Shown piece by piece: positions 26,382 to 33,970 of a stretch of 64,000 nt of DNA. The stretch is from Caldifarciminota bacterium (GTDB lineage Bacteria > Hydrothermota > Tepidihabitantia > SM23-42). Both the position numbers and the translations under genes were made by a program. The stretch covers positions 311,814 through 375,813 of the forward strand of contig CP070686.1 of NCBI GenBank assembly GCA_020353055.1. Reading direction: 5' to 3'. Positions within the stretch are counted from its first letter, which is position 1, and each line of letters begins with the position of its first letter. Under the pieces are notes generated by a model that saw nothing but the letters and a program-made list of their open reading frames with translations, was not told the origin of the DNA and searched no databases.

Positions 26382-26816
26382 CTAGAACGGCGTATCAACC
26401 GCACCATCGTCCTTGTAGTCTTCATCCGTTTCGGACGCTGGTGCTGCTGCTGTCGTTGTACCAGCCTGCGGCAAATCCAGGAATTGAATCCGGCGCGCGA
26501 CTACCTCGATCGCAGATCGCTTCTCTCCCTGAGCCGACTCCCACTGACGCGAACGCAACCTACCCTCGATCAGAACCGCACTGCCTTTTTTCAAGAAATC
26601 ATTTGCCAATTCAGCCTGTCGCCGCCAGGCGACGACGTTGATGAACAGTGTCTCCTCCTGCTGTTCACCGGTCTCTCGATTCTTGTACCGCCGACTCGAT
26701 GCAATACGGAAATCGCAAACCGGGGCACCTTTTTGTGTATAGCGCAATTCAGGATCAGCAACTAGCCTGCCGATCAGCTGAACCGCATTCAAATATCCTA
26801 AACGAAGATCGGCCAT
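26382..26816 (-). CDS. ssb: Single-stranded DNA-binding protein
   Basis: SSB coats single-stranded DNA during replication and repair. An OB-fold occupies residues 8-110 (VQLIGRLVADPELRYTQKGAPVCDFRIA; TLFINVVAWRRQAELANDFLKKGSAVLIEGRL). A linker and an acidic tail ending in VDTPF follow, a slight variant of the usual DDIPF partner-binding tip. The 144-residue length is normal. It lies between rpsF (one base away) and rpsR (15 bases away). Confidence 0.96.
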   Translation of the reverse strand: MADLRLGYLNAVQLIGRLVADPELRYTQKGAPVCDFRIASSRRYKNRETGEQQEETLFINVVAWRRQAELANDFLKKGSAVLIEGRLRSRQWESAQGEKRSAIEVVARRIQFLDLPQAGTTTAAAPASETDEDYKDDGAVDTPF

Positions 26817-26817
26817 T

Positions 26818-27105
26818 TTACACGTCCTTAACGAAAATTATGAAACGCAATATATCTTCGCTGTGTTTAAGTTCCGTCTTGATCTTGTCGATAGCGACCG
26901 GCAGTGCTTCAAAGACATAATTCACGTAGTATCCTTCGTTCAATTTCCTGATTGGATAGGCAAGCGTCTTTTTGCCCAGGTTTTCGGTCTTCAATTCGCT
27001 CTTCGTATTGCCCTTGATGATTTTCTCGACCGCCTGAACGCTTTGTTCTACTTTCTCATCAGTAAGATCTGGATGAAAAATGAACATTGCTTCGTAATTT
27101 CTCAT
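26818..27105 (-). CDS. rpsF: 30S ribosomal protein S6 (bS6)
   Basis: The first gene of the S6-SSB-S18-L9 operon. The 95-residue protein begins MRNYEAMFIFHPDLTDEKV and contains GKKTLAYPIRKLNEGYYVNYVFEA, both typical of bS6. AAAGGA lies ten bases before ATG 27105. A strong promoter is found about 90 bases upstream. I looked for the known S6:S18-binding leader motif (bulged CCG) and did not find one. Confidence 0.97.
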   Translation of the reverse strand: MRNYEAMFIFHPDLTDEKVEQSVQAVEKIIKGNTKSELKTENLGKKTLAYPIRKLNEGYYVNYVFEALPVAIDKIKTELKHSEDILRFIIFVKDV

Positions 27106-27192
27106 AGTCTTTATCCTTTTCTATATCATTTACTTATAACCGACAAAAAAATATGCGCCGCACACCCTGCTAACGCAAAAACCAATTTCATT

Positions 27193-27220
27193 ATTATATC
27201 TATATCTCGCTTGGCGTCAA
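27193..27220 (-). promoter_or_regulatory. Promoter of the rpsF-ssb-rpsR-rplI operon
   Basis: On the minus strand TTGACG (27220-27215) and TATAAT (27198-27193) are 16 bases apart. The predicted start near 27186 gives a leader of about 80 bases. Confidence 0.8.
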
Positions 27221-27229
27221 GGAGAATGT

Positions 27230-27260
27230 GGAGGGCCGACCCTTCTGGGATCGGCCCTCC
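27230..27260 (-). terminator. Strong hairpin after the alpha-2-macroglobulin gene
   Basis: GGAGGGCCGA pairs perfectly with TCGGCCCTCC, and an inner CCC/GGG extends the stem around a TTCT loop. It begins ten bases after the macroglobulin stop and ends just ahead of the rpsF promoter. There is no T-run on either strand, so it is either a weak intrinsic terminator or an mRNA 3'-end stabiliser. Confidence 0.55.
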
Positions 27261-27270
27261 AGTCATCCTG

Positions 27271-30200
27271 TTACATGTTGACCTGCATTTCAATAGGCGG
27301 CTCGAAGGCTCCATCTTCGATGTTATAGTACTCGTATACCTGTGAAGCACGCACCTTTGCGCGAATGGGGTATTTCGCCTGCAGCCGGTACTCTATGTTG
27401 ACCGGTGTACCGAACACAACCTCATCGAGATAGATAATTATTTGTCTTGGCGTGAGGCTGTATTTCTGTATCTTCTTGCCGACGAGTTCATCAAGGGTAG
27501 GCGTCAGGACCTCAAAGCCAGGCGGGATACCAAGATCAACCATCACCATCTGGGCGCGGCCTGGCCTCAATAGTTGCACCCTTACATCGACGTCAACGAT
27601 GTCGTTTACACCAAGCTTCGTGCGGTCATATTCGACATCGATAGTAAAAGGAGGTTTACCCCCTTTCGGGACGATCTCCCACGGTAGGTAGTATTTGCTC
27701 ATGATTTCGTAGAGGAAGTTACCTTCTCCATCGACAATCACCTCGACGGTATTCTTTGCCCCTATGTTACCGCTCAGATCGATCTGATGCATGAGGTCGG
27801 CATTGCTTTTATCCACTCTAAATTCCGACACCTTCTTGCCGTTGACCGTGACGACTATCCTGGCGTCGACATCCTCGCTCGTACTGCCCAGTGCCGCAAC
27901 GAATGCACGAAGGGCGATAATCGTACCCTGCGTTGTATACCAGATTCCCGATTTGTCCTTGGCGCGTATCAGATAGGTCAATGCCTCGCTCACGACGTCG
28001 GTGTACTTACCGGATCTTATTAACGCATATACGGCGAGTCCGGTTGCCTCAATATCTGCTCCAATACCACGGGTGAAGGTTACTGAAGGCAGTCCAGATT
28101 CCCAGTAGACCGCATCCTTATCCCTTTTCGCCATAGCCACGAGACGCTTCAGTACATCAAGCGTAGCGGCGGAATTTGGCTCAAGGGAAACGAGAGCATT
28201 TGCCACGAGGGCGAGCATGTAGGGATCCTTGGCAGCATTCAGGTTCTTCTTTAAATAGTTTAGTCCACTCTGCACCGAGGCACCGCGATCGCCGATTTCG
28301 CCCAATGCCCAGCAGATATAAGCGGTGGGTAGAATCTCATTTTTTTGTATATTACCCCAGGATTCGGCATGCAGGTACTGTGCATCTGGCGACCAGGAAC
28401 CGTCTTTGTTCTGCTGCCCTTTCAACCATTGGACCGTACGTTCAATAATACGCTCGTCGATGTCATACACTTGAGCCATATCATTGAACTCCATCAAACC
28501 GTAGGCGGTCAGAATCTTGTTCGCCGGCGCGTCGCCAAACCATGAAAAACCTCCGCCCTGCACTTCAAATGTCACGAGACGCTGATAACCCAGGCTGATG
28601 TACTCTTCAGCGGTCATCTCGGTCTCCGGTTTGATCTGCTCGGTCTGTCTCAGGTAGTTGAGGACCAATATGTTGGGATAGGTGACCGAAGTTGTCTGTT
28701 CAAAGCAGCCAAAAGGAACACCCAGCAATTTGTCCAGACCCTCGACAACCTGTGAAAAGATACCCGGAAAGATCTTCAAACCAAGCCAGTTGGCATCGCG
28801 AATCGCGTTTACAGGAAACGAAATTTGCTTTTCAACACGACCCGTCAGTCGGTCGGAAACGACATCTTCATACAGTTTTCCATCAGGCAGAACAGCCACC
28901 GAGCGCTTTATGGCATCTGACATTACCTCGCCGTAAGCTCTGACCAGTATCGAGTGGTAACCGAGTTTCTTAACCCTGATCGGAAAATACGCAACACTAA
29001 CCTCATCCTGCCTGAGTTCTCTGACGATTTCGGGATTATCCATGACATCGAACCAATCTTCCTTCTGTAGCACCAACCTGATCTCCTGATCTCTGGGTAG
29101 ATAGTTATAAAGAGCAACCGGTATCGATATCTCATCACCTTCGGTCAAAGCGACCGGCAAGTCGATGTCGACGAAAAAATCCTGAAATACGCGTAAGTGA
29201 GCAAGGTTGGATCCAAGTTCACCGTCCGTAGAAGACGCGAAAGTAGTTATGCGCCATGTCGTTATTGCATCGGGCATCGTCAATGACAGCCTTGCCGTAC
29301 CGTCGTAATCCGTGATGAGCGCCGGTTCAAATACAAAGGTTTCAGGAAAGAATTCGCGCACCCGAGGTTCTTCCTGTGGCTGTTGCACTCCTGTTCCCGA
29401 CTTCATGCCTTTTACTGCGAGACGGCGTACCCCTGCTGCCGCCGGCATCATTGCATCCATCTCCTCGGCAAAGAGAATACCTTCGTCCCACATCATTTCG
29501 TCTACATCATCATCATTATCGATGATGCCGTCCGGCCCGGCCGAGGCAATGGTAAAGTATTGAAAATACTCTTCGGGCGAGCGTACATGGTACCTCCTGC
29601 CCCAAGGATCAAGAATTTCCTCCTGCTGCAGCATGCCTTCTTTTATGAACAAACCAATGGCATCCTCGCTTCTTGGATATTCGCCGTGCTTCTGGAAATA
29701 CTCATTCTGCGCTTCGTAAATTTTGAATCTGACTTCTTCCAATTTTGTGTAGAACGCCTCCTGTATCTTCTCGGTAACAAGTTGCGGTGTGATGTAACTC
29801 ACCGGGTAGTGATCCCTCGGAACGAGAGTTGAAAACATGACATTCTCAGCCCGCGCCTCCATCGCCTTCATCTCCACAATGCTGACCGGCGTGAAACCGT
29901 GTATTTCATAACGCGGCTTCATTATCTCTTCTTCAAGTTTGAAGTAAACCTTTTCCAAACCAGGTTGAAGTTCGGACACGGCGAAAACCGCCTCATCCAC
30001 AACCGCGACGCATAACGCAGCGACCCTGGGACGTCCATCCTGACCAGTCACAGTAAACATTATCTCACCATCCTGTCCTGGTGCATATTCTTCTTGTCCC
30101 TTGCTGACTTTGATATGCAGGTCGTCTGCCGCATTGACATAGCAGAAACGCGTATCGCGTACGATATCACTGCTGCGGGTAACGATATACGCATGCAACC

Positions 30201-31947
30201 AGATCGAACCGCTCAGATCGGGTGTCAGATTCAGTTTATAACGTCCTCTATAGTTTCTAATCGTAACCGATTTTGTCATTATTGTCTGATTGTCTTTGAT
30301 GACATCAAAATAAACACGCCCTGATTGCTTGGAGGTCATGAAGGTAAGGTCGAGTGATTCACCTACATTGTATATGCCGCGTGCCATCCTCATTATTAGC
30401 TGATCGTTAGCCGTATCCAAGTTAAAGACGCGCTCAATCACCGCGGTCTCTCCTTTGTCATCGGTGGCTCTCACTTCAATCTGCGTCTTCGGGTCACGTG
30501 GGGTAAGTTCGAATTCGGCAATCCCATAGTCATCGGTTCGCGCCTTAAAGCGCAGGTCACCAACACGCATCTGGACCTGAGCAAAGCAAGGTGTGCCATC
30601 GGGATATGTGGCAAGAACATAAACCCGGTTTTCAAGATTGGGCCGCAGGAACCCGCCTTCGGGAACGATAGCAAGACCAATGATATCCTTCACGATCTTC
30701 TTTTTTGCAGATATCTTCTCGCTATGATTCGCCGGATCGATTACCTCAACATCGAGGCGTATAAAAGCATCGCCTTGTTCCAATGGCTGACCAACGAAAT
30801 GATCAGGCAGACGATACGTGAAGTGATAGCGTCCTTCTTTATCGGTACGTCCTTCGACCACCGATTCCTGCTGGAATCCGACATCGAATCTGTAAGTGGT
30901 TATCCGGACCAGTGCCTCTGCTACAGGTTTTCCAAAGAAATACTCAGCATCTATGTCACCGTCGATTTGTTCTCCCGGCATGTAGTATTCTCTTCCGGTC
31001 GTCAATTCAATTTTGAACTTCGGTAACACATATTTCTTAACATTAACAGTCTTCTCAACCTTATCGCCGGTGAGAACTACCCTGATCGTATAATCTCCAA
31101 AATTCACTTCATCGGCAAGAGTGAATTCCGTATGTGCAACACCGAAGTCATCCGTCCTCATCTCCTCCTTGTATACCTTATTGCCTTTACTATCCTCCAC
31201 TTCGAAGAGAACGATTTCGTCATCCACCGGATGCAGGTCGGGCCGCCGCAGCGATAAGGATCTCATGTGAATGGTCTGCCCGGGCTGGTATACAGGTTTA
31301 TCGGTCACCAGATAGGTCATGTTACCGCTCAGTACTCTGATGCTCACGTCGTACGAGTCCTTGCCCAGGGTTGAGGCTATATCGAAATGAAGGTCGGCTT
31401 CATCCACAGCCTCAGGAATACCGAAATCGGTCTCACAAGACCCTGCTCGATCCGTGACACCTTCGAATACTACTTTTTCGAACCCGGCAGTCTTCAAGGT
31501 CACCTTTATGCGGGCATTCTCAACAGGAGCGTTATCTCTCTGATTATGCACAATGATACGGTAATTGATCGCCCTATCTCTTATGAATTCGTTTTGGCCC
31601 ATTATCTGCACTATCATGCGGTCTTCGAGCTGATATAGCGAATAGATATACTTTTCTTTCTTGAATTCTGCTACAACCCTAAGCAAATCCCGGTCGCGTG
31701 GTTCTTTCTTCAGTTCGACCTTCAAGGGCACCGAGTAGTAATCTCCCGTCACATAGACATATTTATAAGTATGCCCGATAACTTCATCATTGGTGTCCAC
31801 AATATCGACATCGATCCTTCCATATGTCCCCCTCATATCTTCGATCGGAACTTCGATTTGGAGGACGTCGCGCTGTCGATCCAGGTTCAGTCCCGAAACA
31901 ACACTAAGTGAAGTCACTATGAGTACGACGAATATGATCTTTTTCAT
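27271..31947 (-). CDS. Alpha-2-macroglobulin family protein with thioester and pseudopilin-like insert
   Basis: Alpha-2-macroglobulins trap proteases: cleavage of a bait region exposes a thioester that binds the attacker. This 1558-residue protein has an N-terminal signal peptide (residues 1-19, no lipobox Cys). MG domains follow (TDKPVYQPGQTIHMRSL near 215; a KKYVLPKFKIEL motif like eukaryotic members). Then come ANATO/bait-region-like sequence, the post-bait MG domain (DAITTWRITTFASS), and a thioester domain with GCFEQ near 1077-1081. A C-terminal receptor-binding-type MG domain contains VYEYYN. Between about residues 725 and 815 a segment with DPWGRRYHVRSPEE and SAGPDGIIDNDDD resembles the C-terminal part of GspG pseudopilins. 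AGAAGGAGG precedes ATG 31947. It is probably periplasmic or surface-exposed. Confidence 0.92.
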   Translation of the reverse strand: MKKIIFVVLIVTSLSVVSGLNLDRQRDVLQIEVPIEDMRGTYGRIDVDIVDTNDEVIGHTYKYVYVTGDYYSVPLKVELKKEPRDRDLLRVVAEFKKEKYIYSLYQLEDRMIVQIMGQNEFIRDRAINYRIIVHNQRDNAPVENARIKVTLKTAGFEKVVFEGVTDRAGSCETDFGIPEAVDEADLHFDIASTLGKDSYDVSIRVLSGNMTYLVTDKPVYQPGQTIHMRSLSLRRPDLHPVDDEIVLFEVEDSKGNKVYKEEMRTDDFGVAHTEFTLADEVNFGDYTIRVVLTGDKVEKTVNVKKYVLPKFKIELTTGREYYMPGEQIDGDIDAEYFFGKPVAEALVRITTYRFDVGFQQESVVEGRTDKEGRYHFTYRLPDHFVGQPLEQGDAFIRLDVEVIDPANHSEKISAKKKIVKDIIGLAIVPEGGFLRPNLENRVYVLATYPDGTPCFAQVQMRVGDLRFKARTDDYGIAEFELTPRDPKTQIEVRATDDKGETAVIERVFNLDTANDQLIMRMARGIYNVGESLDLTFMTSKQSGRVYFDVIKDNQTIMTKSVTIRNYRGRYKLNLTPDLSGSIWLHAYIVTRSSDIVRDTRFCYVNAADDLHIKVSKGQEEYAPGQDGEIMFTVTGQDGRPRVAALCVAVVDEAVFAVSELQPGLEKVYFKLEEEIMKPRYEIHGFTPVSIVEMKAMEARAENVMFSTLVPRDHYPVSYITPQLVTEKIQEAFYTKLEEVRFKIYEAQNEYFQKHGEYPRSEDAIGLFIKEGMLQQEEILDPWGRRYHVRSPEEYFQYFTIASAGPDGIIDNDDDVDEMMWDEGILFAEEMDAMMPAAAGVRRLAVKGMKSGTGVQQPQEEPRVREFFPETFVFEPALITDYDGTARLSLTMPDAITTWRITTFASSTDGELGSNLAHLRVFQDFFVDIDLPVALTEGDEISIPVALYNYLPRDQEIRLVLQKEDWFDVMDNPEIVRELRQDEVSVAYFPIRVKKLGYHSILVRAYGEVMSDAIKRSVAVLPDGKLYEDVVSDRLTGRVEKQISFPVNAIRDANWLGLKIFPGIFSQVVEGLDKLLGVPFGCFEQTTSVTYPNILVLNYLRQTEQIKPETEMTAEEYISLGYQRLVTFEVQGGGFSWFGDAPANKILTAYGLMEFNDMAQVYDIDERIIERTVQWLKGQQNKDGSWSPDAQYLHAESWGNIQKNEILPTAYICWALGEIGDRGASVQSGLNYLKKNLNAAKDPYMLALVANALVSLEPNSAATLDVLKRLVAMAKRDKDAVYWESGLPSVTFTRGIGADIEATGLAVYALIRSGKYTDVVSEALTYLIRAKDKSGIWYTTQGTIIALRAFVAALGSTSEDVDARIVVTVNGKKVSEFRVDKSNADLMHQIDLSGNIGAKNTVEVIVDGEGNFLYEIMSKYYLPWEIVPKGGKPPFTIDVEYDRTKLGVNDIVDVDVRVQLLRPGRAQMVMVDLGIPPGFEVLTPTLDELVGKKIQKYSLTPRQIIIYLDEVVFGTPVNIEYRLQAKYPIRAKVRASQVYEYYNIEDGAFEPPIEMQVNM

Positions 31948-31980
31948 TCTGACCTCCTTCTGAAATAAAATACAATCGCG

Positions 31981-31998
31981 TGGGGAAAATATTCCCCA
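31981..31998. other. Perfect hairpin between rpsT and the macroglobulin gene
   Basis: TGGGGAA and TTCCCCA form a seven-base stem around AATA. On the minus strand it lies 30 bases after the rpsT stop and 34 bases before the macroglobulin start. It lacks a long T-run but is followed by a T-rich stretch, so it may attenuate read-through from rpsT. Confidence 0.45.
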
Positions 31999-32027
31999 GA
32001 ACTTGGAGCCAGGTTCGACTGCTGAGG

Positions 32028-32282
32028 TTATTTAAGGGTACTTATATGTTTCATCAACTGCGCCTTATGCCGCGCAGCCGTATTCTTCGAAATAATGCCA
32101 TCCTGAACCGACTTATCAATGATCGCCTGGACTCCAGGATAAGCTTTCATGGCGGATTTTTTGGTTCTTACTTTTTTTATCTTCTTGAGAGCTTCTTTTA
32201 ACTTCTTTTTTCTGTTTCGATTGACAATCCGCCGCTTCGTTGATTTGCGGATATTCTTTAGAACGCTAATTGACCTTTTCAT
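32028..32282 (-). CDS. rpsT: 30S ribosomal protein S20 (bS20)
   Basis: bS20 is a small helical protein of the 30S body. The 84-residue sequence shows the lysine/arginine-rich pattern KNIRKSTKRRIVNRNRKKKLKEAL and ends KNTAARHKAQLMKHISTL, diagnostic of the family. The start ATG 32282 is only six bases after a perfect -10 box and has no Shine-Dalgarno sequence, so the mRNA is probably leaderless. It is transcribed separately from the rpoD operon upstream. Confidence 0.95.
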   Translation of the reverse strand: MKRSISVLKNIRKSTKRRIVNRNRKKKLKEALKKIKKVRTKKSAMKAYPGVQAIIDKSVQDGIISKNTAARHKAQLMKHISTLK

Positions 32283-32288
32283 GGTGCT

Positions 32289-32316
32289 ATTATATACAAA
32301 ATGACAGACCTGTCAA
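32289..32316 (-). promoter_or_regulatory. Promoter of rpsT, leaderless type
   Basis: On the minus strand TTGACA (32316-32311) and TATAAT (32294-32289), both perfect, are 16 bases apart. Six bases (AGCACC) then precede ATG, so transcription should begin at the A of the start codon. Confidence 0.85.
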
Positions 32317-32386
32317 GCAGAATGGACGACAAGTCACCGTATAGTTACTGCACGTCATCATGGGAAAAAGGAGAAAATTGACCCGC

Positions 32387-33970
32387 TCAGTTAATCAGGT
32401 CTTTATACATCTGGAGTTTACGCAGACGTGTTGGATGGCGCAGTTTCTTGAGCGCTTTCGCTTCGATCTGCCTCACTCTCTCTCGTGTTATGTTGAACAT
32501 TCTGCCTACTTCTTCCAGTGTTCTCGGCAAACCGTCATTGAGTCCGAAACGCAGACGGATGATCTTCTCCTCCCTCTTCGGCAGATCATGCAATATGTCA
32601 TTGAAACGGTCTTTGAGTATCGATATCGCGGCACGCCGTGAAGGTGAATCACCCATTGGATCACTGATGAAATCGCCGACAAAACTCGACTCCTCGTCAT
32701 CGATCGGTTTATCCAGCGAAATCGGTATCAGTGCGATGTTGTGTGCCATTCGTACCTTGTCGGTGGGGATATCCAAACGGTCCGCAATCTCCTCAACGGT
32801 TGGGTCGCGACCCAAATCCTGAATCATATCACGCTGCGCGCGGGCCACCTTATTCATCGTATCCAGGATGTGAGCAGGTACCCTGACCGTACGGGCCTGA
32901 TCACCAATCGCACGGGTTATTGCCTGGCGGATCCACCAGGTTGCGTATGTCGAGAATTTGTAACCCTTGCGATAGTCAAATTTCTCAACCGCCTTTATCA
33001 AACCATTGTTGCCTTCACCAACGAGGTCGGCGAACTCCAATCCGCGATTGACGTATTTCTTGGCGATCGATATGACCAGACGCATGTTCCCTTCAATCAT
33101 GCGCTGACGTGCGCGATTTATCAAATCCTCCCATGCACGCACAATTCCTGAAGTTTCGTACAGATGGTTATGATCACCACCCAATGCTGCAGTAAGTAGC
33201 TTCCTATCCTTCTTGCACTGTTTAATCTCATCTTGATTGCGCAGCCGGGGTAGGGTACGGACCACTTTTTCCAACCGCTCAATGTTCTCTTTGAATTCCT
33301 GTATTGCGGCGTTGACAACGGCATGCTGCAGTGAAAGAACATTCACCTTACGCAATATTCGCTCTTCCTTCTCGAAAATACGCCAACCCAAGGTCTTTGA
33401 TTTATCACGCTTAGTCTTCCTGTACAGCTGAAGCAGTGAACCGTAATCCCGCTCTATCGATTTGACCCGTCGCACAAAACGCTGCCGCTCGGCCCAGAAA
33501 GAACGCTTGTCCATCATTGCCTCAATTTCGACCCTGGATATCTGATCCAGACTACGGTGGCAATTTTCGACCTGCTTGCAGACTTCGATCAGCTTATTAA
33601 TCGTACAAGGATACGGCAGAAACTGCCGCTCGATCATGCGATATCCTGTTTCAATCTTCACGGCGAGCTCGTATTCCTCTTCCTTGGTCAAGAGGTCATA
33701 TTTGGCCAATTCCTTAAAATATGCCCGAATCGGTTCTTCAGGCCTGAGCGTGGTCTTCGGGCGACGACGCCCAACATGTTCCTTTCCTTCTTGGACAATA
33801 GTAATACCGTAGTTCGACAGAGTATCAAGAATCTGATCTATATCTTTGGCCGTCGCGCCTTCTGGGATGAGCTTATCGACCTCACCCAGGGAAATACTCC
33901 CTTCGCTCTTCGCCTTTTCAATTATCTTCTTGGAATCCTTCGTTTTTAGAAGTTCTTTTTTAACTTTCAT
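32387..33970 (-). CDS. rpoD: RNA polymerase primary sigma factor RpoD
   Basis: The primary sigma-70 factor directs RNA polymerase to housekeeping promoters. This 527-residue form has region 1.1 (residues 1-60), region 1.2 ([20 protein letters not shown]), a charged non-conserved region, and region 2 with [38 protein letters not shown]. Regions 3 and 4 follow, with the helix-turn-helix [32 protein letters not shown] precedes ATG. It follows dnaG by 58 bases in the rpsU-mutS2-dnaG-rpoD unit. The promoters in this window (TTGACA-16-TATAAT) match what such a sigma factor recognises. Confidence 0.97.

Follow-up and report, generated by a model that had tools for sequence, protein, structure and literature searches.

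A pseudopilin-type domain in the bait insert of a bacterial thioester macroglobulin

A stretch of 64,000 nucleotides from a Caldifarciminota bacterium (contig CP070686.1; hereafter the window) encodes a thioester alpha-2-macroglobulin whose MG6 insert, the region that holds the bait in proteins of this family, contains a domain of the type found at the C-terminus of the pseudopilin GspG. The domain lies between an LNK-like segment and a hypervariable linker, and the linker is followed by an invariant RxxFP motif. On balance, we favour a reading in which the domain serves as a calcium-stabilised, protease-resistant spacer in the MG6 insert that presents the linker behind it as bait. The gene and the parts of its product are arranged as follows, in order from the N-terminus.

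27271 to 31947, minus strand: thioester alpha-2-macroglobulin gene, 1558 residues (Pfam TED_complement, A2M, MG2, MG3, A2M_BRD and A2M_recep over cut-off).
31888 to 31947, minus strand: likely signal peptide, residues 1-20, without a lipobox Cys, read by eye from the sequence.
29788 to 29967, minus strand: LNK-like segment, residues 661-720, holding the conserved PGLEKVYF-LEKE-PRYEIHG, from conservation and predicted helices.
29503 to 29787, minus strand: pseudopilin (GspG/T2SSG) C-terminal domain, residues 721-815, from profile matches, alignments and structure prediction.
29506 to 29541, minus strand: calcium-loop-like segment AGPDGIIDNDDD, residues 803-814, from conservation, with the ligands taken from part of PMC3396595.
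29371 to 29499, minus strand: hypervariable linker and likely bait, residues 817-859, from variability and predicted disorder.
29344 to 29358, minus strand: R864-P868 (REFFP), counterpart of Arg730-Pro734, the BR-C plug of A2ML1, from invariance and alignment.
28696 to 28710, minus strand: thioester motif GCFEQ, residues 1080-1084.

Membership in the thioester alpha-2-macroglobulin family is indicated by MG domains, an A2M domain and a thioester domain in the Pfam results, and by GCFEQ, which agrees with the Cys-x-Glu-Gln motif. GCFEQ is present in 114 of the 120 homologs listed and in 74 of 80 loci collected from genome contigs, the frames of the remaining six stopping ahead of the motif. A phmmer search with the full length matched CD109, A2M, A2ML1, TEP1 and C3-C5 (best E 2.4e-72), and a PHROGs search of the protein gave zero matches. 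As far as sequence can tell, the macroglobulin is likely a protease trap, and it is predicted to be secreted from a signal-peptide-like N-terminus read by eye; a helix is predicted at residues 2-21 (AlphaFold, residues 1-1060). The first Cys is residue 171, and the stretch between residues 646 and 1081 is free of Cys. Beta strands are predicted at residues 28-105 (window 31633-31866), ahead of MG1, and none of the structural matches listed starts before about residue 106-113. The thioester domain contains His1193 (in YLHAESW, window 28369-28371), a candidate for the histidine of acyl transfer; many WOR-3 rows keep it, and several others have another residue there; a regular expression too strict for a count matched the histidine in 73 of 111 rows.

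The identity of the inserted domain was proposed in a preliminary description made from the letters of the window, and it holds: T2SSG (PF08334) matches residues 759-813 with 22.4 bits, over its gathering cut-off of 21, and the three sequence strings quoted there are found in the protein at residues 742, 780 and 802. The long helix and small antiparallel sheet of the GspG fold are both predicted, and AlphaFold (residues 1-1060) predicts a compact, confident domain with pLDDT of 75-88 rather than a disordered one; the pieces folded are without TED and MG8, and the alignments used were A3, with 50 of the 80 loci, and A4, with 34 of the 120 listed homologs. Homologous inserts score T2SSG at E<=0.01 in 24 of 25 cases in one set and 41 of 51 in another, the remaining 10 of the 51 insert regions falling short of E 0.01 on their own. 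The macroglobulin itself is not a GspG, and the domain works as a part of the macroglobulin. Its score for the GspG equivalog TIGR01710 is 19.2 bits against a cut-off of 88.85, and the N-terminal prepilin cleavage/methylation motif is absent, N_methyl not being among the Pfam matches. Public records P0017, P0075 and P0119 give such macroglobulins the title of type II secretion system protein GspG, which is likely an annotation error arising from the insert. The preliminary description knew of no described case, and our search of the open-access literature (PMC) for macroglobulin with pseudopilin, T2SSG or GspG likewise returned no description of such a protein and nothing that was relevant by its title and the opening of its abstract; among the matches listed for 'bacterial macroglobulin' in PMC, none was to the point.

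Variation among 118 homologous sequences divides the insert into distinct parts. Residues 650-691, with a mean entropy of 0.67 bits and constant length, correspond to LNK together with the last portion of the first MG6 part. Helices are predicted in the LNK-like segment at 665-676 and 698-706, and the pLDDT at 661-690 is 35-40, so the hold on the pseudopilin domain may be less than rigid. A semi-variable stretch at residues 692-708, with a length of 13-35, leads to the domain, which has a mean entropy of 2.04 bits and a length of 91-101 (CV 0.014). The linker is hypervariable, with a mean entropy of 2.86 bits and a length of 36-92 (CV 0.167), and blocks 821-860 have a pLDDT of 24-31 as opposed to 75-88 in the domain (AlphaFold, residues 1-1060). 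The stretch 816-860 spans 45-120 residues in the 76 of 80 loci with the plug. Every one of the 118 linkers contains K or R, and relative to the frames of the 80 loci they are enriched 4-fold in Met, 2.7-fold in Trp and 1.5 to 1.7-fold in Ala, Glu and Gly. Judged by variability and predicted disorder, residues 817-859 are likely the bait. Being Met-rich (about 4-fold; window 29371-29499), the linker could be oxidation-sensitive. Behind it, segment 860-870 has a mean entropy of 0.39 bits, and R864, F867 and P868 are invariant in 118 of 118 homologs and in all of the 76 of 80 loci having the position; VREFFPETF of the window protein aligns with VRKYFPETW of human A2M.

These parts can be placed on the known layout of the family. 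The phmmer match to the N-terminal part of C3 stops at residue 659 and the longer C-terminal matches (CD109, A2M, A2ML1, TEP1, C3-C5) begin at 848-885. The LNK-plus-bait insert is therefore made up here of LNK, the pseudopilin domain and the linker. According to sections of PMC9156758, LNK and bait form one insert in MG6 of A2ML1, and an ANA domain replaces the bait in complement proteins. From the alignment of the plug and this A2ML1 layout, the pseudopilin domain stands in the place of ANA and the linker in that of the scissile stretch. The earlier placement of the domain between an ANATO/bait region and the next MG domain, where proteases cut, is thus correct in locating it in the bait insert, but the bait-like part is the linker that follows the domain, and the ANATO region described as its neighbour is ruled out by zero Pfam matches to ANATO; it is the pseudopilin domain itself that lies where complement proteins have ANATO.

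The reading of the domain as a spacer would operate on the model of A2ML1, for which parts of PMC9156758 describe Arg730-Pro734 as plugging a channel of MG2, MG3 and LNK, with withdrawal of the plug upon bait cleavage proposed to start the conformational change. By analogy, a protease would cut the linker at 817-859, the cut would free R864-P868 from the MG2/MG3/LNK channel, the channel would close, and the thioester would then be exposed and capture the protease. The pseudopilin domain, tied to LNK by a short stretch, would hold the long linker out toward proteases and would itself withstand cleavage because calcium stands in for disulphides. It may stay attached after the cut and perhaps keep the protease near the thioester; the A2ML1 authors suggest that LNK residues, and those on the N-terminal side of the cut, help to retain the protease (PMC9156758). 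The suggestion in the preliminary description of a rigid bait survives in part, in that these data are compatible with a rigid element next to the bait, but the bait-like part is the linker, which is predicted to be disordered, and not the domain.

A broader reading is that this is a bacterial complement-like protein with a pseudopilin domain in the anaphylatoxin slot, a calcium-knit module gating, or released by, proteolytic activation and long kept across many phyla; we regard it as conceivable, though rather doubtful. A reading in which the domain is a detachable C3a-like module that is freed by cuts on both sides as a signal or cap while the remainder acts like C3b is unlikely. The domain does occupy the ANA slot by alignment and by the layout in parts of PMC9156758, and the semi-variable stretch at 692-708 precedes it, but the C-terminal linker is longer and less conserved than the N-terminal connection at 692-720, no processing site was seen there by eye, and the neighbours include no receptor candidate in a screen that is weak and has short flanks. 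The comparison with ANA is positional, and nothing in these data points to a release of the domain.

The role of calcium in the favoured spacer is approached through the structure 3G20, in which, as given in portions of PMC3396595, calcium is bound by the main-chain O of P114 and V119 and the side chains of D117, T122 and D125, the discussion there taking position 8 as main-chain. These residues (P114/V119/D117/T122/D125) align with A803/I808/D806/N811/D814 of the window protein, so that D806 and D814 correspond to D117 and D125, the Asp residues that bind calcium through their side chains; at the position of N811, 64 of the 80 loci have T and 11 have N. In the alignment of the 80 loci, all keep the DPW Asp; D813 and the GxD glycine are kept in 78 each, D806 and D814 in 77 each and the W of DPW in 76. 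All 118 homologs keep both D806 and D814, as do 76 of the 80 loci, in keeping with the calcium-binding fold suggested in the preliminary description. Parts of PMC5131608 state that pseudopilins employ calcium where type IV pilins employ disulphides, and since the 3G20 ligands also align, calcium binding by the domain is likely on sequence grounds. The PERCAL motif G-x-D-G-x-x-[GN]-[TN]-x-D-D is not matched, as G804-P-D-G-I-I-D-N-D-D-D814 deviates at position 7, and the relaxed motif G-x-D-G-x(5)-D-D is present. Of the four loci that do not keep both residues, L065 has N at the position of D806, L115 has E at that of D814, L127 has lost the loop, and in L129 the contig stops within the domain. 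With one ligand changed in L065 and L115, the loop lost in L127 and degraded in L026, calcium does not appear essential everywhere. L026 (which reads IDPYG) and L127 (IDPLG) are of the same macroglobulin kind and constitute a natural test of the need for calcium.

A calcium sensor, with the domain folding only at high calcium and calcium loss opening the trap or making the domain cleavable, could be read into the same data, namely the retention of the ligand Asp pair in 76 of 80 loci and the calcium bound by the equivalent loop of 3G20 (PMC3396595, in part). We give this reading little credence, as a structural calcium, of the kind found in pseudopilins, suffices to explain the conservation, and L127 and L026 retain the position of the domain without an intact loop.

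The architecture is widespread. The region is matched in 23 of 27 genomes of the host's order (G000-G026). For the four genomes without a match, an A2M search shows C-terminal parts of the protein in G011 and G020, one remote match in G018, and none in G019, a genome 53% complete. Across the phylum, it is matched in 30 of 147 genomes. The 80 loci come from a scan of named genome contigs that gave 278 stretches, of which 174 were confirmed and the best 80 kept, ranked by similarity to domain-bearing sequences; being seeded with such sequences, the scan shows the spread of the architecture and not the frequency of domain-free macroglobulins. Titles place 69 of the 80 loci in 12 phyla, with Armatimonadota (33) and Caldifarciminota (10) the largest and 11 loci without a phylum, although nearly all are metagenome bins and individual phylum labels may be wrong. 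Among the loci is L091, whose record is titled Chthonomonas calidirosea, a cultured species for which the taxonomy has four strains. A FastTree phylogeny of 64 macroglobulin bodies with the insert masked has 10 phylum-label changes, compared with a minimum of 8 and a shuffled mean of 25, so the architecture looks, from these sequences, old and largely inherited within groups. A few labels are mixed in the body tree, e.g. one WOR-3 title among two Cloacimonadota titles. In a tree of the inserts, 48 A2M inserts (32 L rows drawn at random and 16 P rows, with L127, L129 and domains of <85 residues dropped) separate from 40 standalone DPWG-containing GspG-type proteins drawn at random, save for the pilin-like rows P0205 and P0212; a single clade of A2M inserts is not rejected (p-AU 0.343), with too few columns for proof. 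Short baits that lack the domain occur in the A2Ms of four class-level relatives (L028-L031), but these belong to a different A2M type and were rejected as empty sites.

This distribution bears on the reading of the domain as a neutral, roleless leftover of an old fusion. The conservation of the domain is moderate in terms of its mean entropy, and the calcium loop has decayed in some lineages, but the length of the domain is near-constant, as its CV of 0.014 indicates, and core and calcium residues are retained in most loci under labels of 12 phyla. A leftover of this kind is therefore improbable.

The surroundings of the gene were examined for partners and for a secretion system. A sigma-70 factor gene adjoins the macroglobulin gene upstream, followed by genes that look ssb- and L9-like by their sequences. 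Within the Caldifarciminota/Stahlbacteria loci, a sigma factor neighbour occurs in 10 of the 81 stretches compared and an ssb-like one in 7, the window being among the 81 (its neighbourhood at 26382-33970). The partner screen was an all-against-all BLASTP of ORFs from the 80 loci and the window, and is weak because the flanks are short. Among its 14 largest clusters, those of the Caldifarciminota/Stahlbacteria hold neighbours of the sigma factor, primase, ssb-, L9- and BFN-like kinds, several big ones read as off-frame or macroglobulin-derived ORFs, and two are five-locus Armatimonadota clusters. The A2M_BRD profile matches exactly two genes in the host genome, the window macroglobulin and a second A2M (L149:1241-6967; G000:C1 around 1315374-1318058) of 1908 residues with a lipobox-like start and YYCLEQ. 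The bait of this second A2M is short and glycine-rich and lacks a pseudopilin domain; with its lipobox-like start and plain bait, it indicates that the cell also has the conventional bacterial type.

No T2SS genes, and thus no T2SS cluster of the kind expected for GspG, lie beside the macroglobulin gene, and T2SSG has no match in the host genome besides it. In a set of 61 genomes, the T2SSG matches outside macroglobulin-sized frames fall in 110-135-residue frames (N-terminal half of the profile only) or in 168-391-residue frames. Docking of the macroglobulin, through its domain, onto the cell's own type IV pilus or type II secretion machine is quite improbable. The genome does encode one secretin and, in a single 404-residue frame, two T2SSF repeats, and it has five places with a prepilin motif, but all of these lie elsewhere and the macroglobulin has no prepilin N-terminal motif. 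The link to a secretion system offered in the preliminary description was rejected on these grounds, the macroglobulin gene being the only T2SSG match in the genome. That the pseudopilin domain is itself the bait, a decoy for pseudopilin-attacking proteases, is highly improbable in spite of its location in the bait insert, as the domain is predicted to be compact and confident and the linker disordered and hypervariable, with K or R in every sequence.

These results suggest that the MG6 insert of thioester macroglobulins has taken up an unrelated folded domain at least two times, the animal case being the anaphylatoxin and the bacterial one the pseudopilin domain. The role of a folded domain in the MG6 slot for activation would become testable apart from vertebrate immunity, and pseudopilin domains would gain a role beyond filaments.

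Compared with human A2ML1, alpha-2-macroglobulin and CD109, the window protein reads GCFEQ where these have Cys-Gly-Glu-Gln, its bait insert contains a folded GspG-type domain, and an extra N-terminal beta domain is predicted at residues 28-105. The enterobacterial-type A2Ms (ECAM, SaA2M) are absent among the matches listed, the best 60 of 73 PDB sequence matches. With GspG, PulG and EpsG the protein shares the fold of the C-terminal domain, the motifs DPWG..Y and SxGPDG, and the calcium loop with DD; it differs in a shorter helix-to-sheet loop in the alignments, in lacking the N-terminal prepilin motif, and in that the domain is embedded in a 1558-residue protein outside any T2SS locus. The PERCAL insertions of bacterial animal-type peroxidases, as presented in part of PMC3396595, similarly set the relaxed motif into another domain, but are insertions of 11 residues, whereas the window protein contains a whole pseudopilin domain. 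In complement C3, C4 and C5, too, LNK is followed by a folded domain and then by the cleaved segment, with the surrounding parts in matching order (PMC9156758); theirs is ANATO, which Pfam does not find here, in place of a pseudopilin domain with a calcium loop. The order of LNK, domain, linker and plug in the window protein is that of LNK, ANA and Nt-alpha' in C3, C4 and C5.
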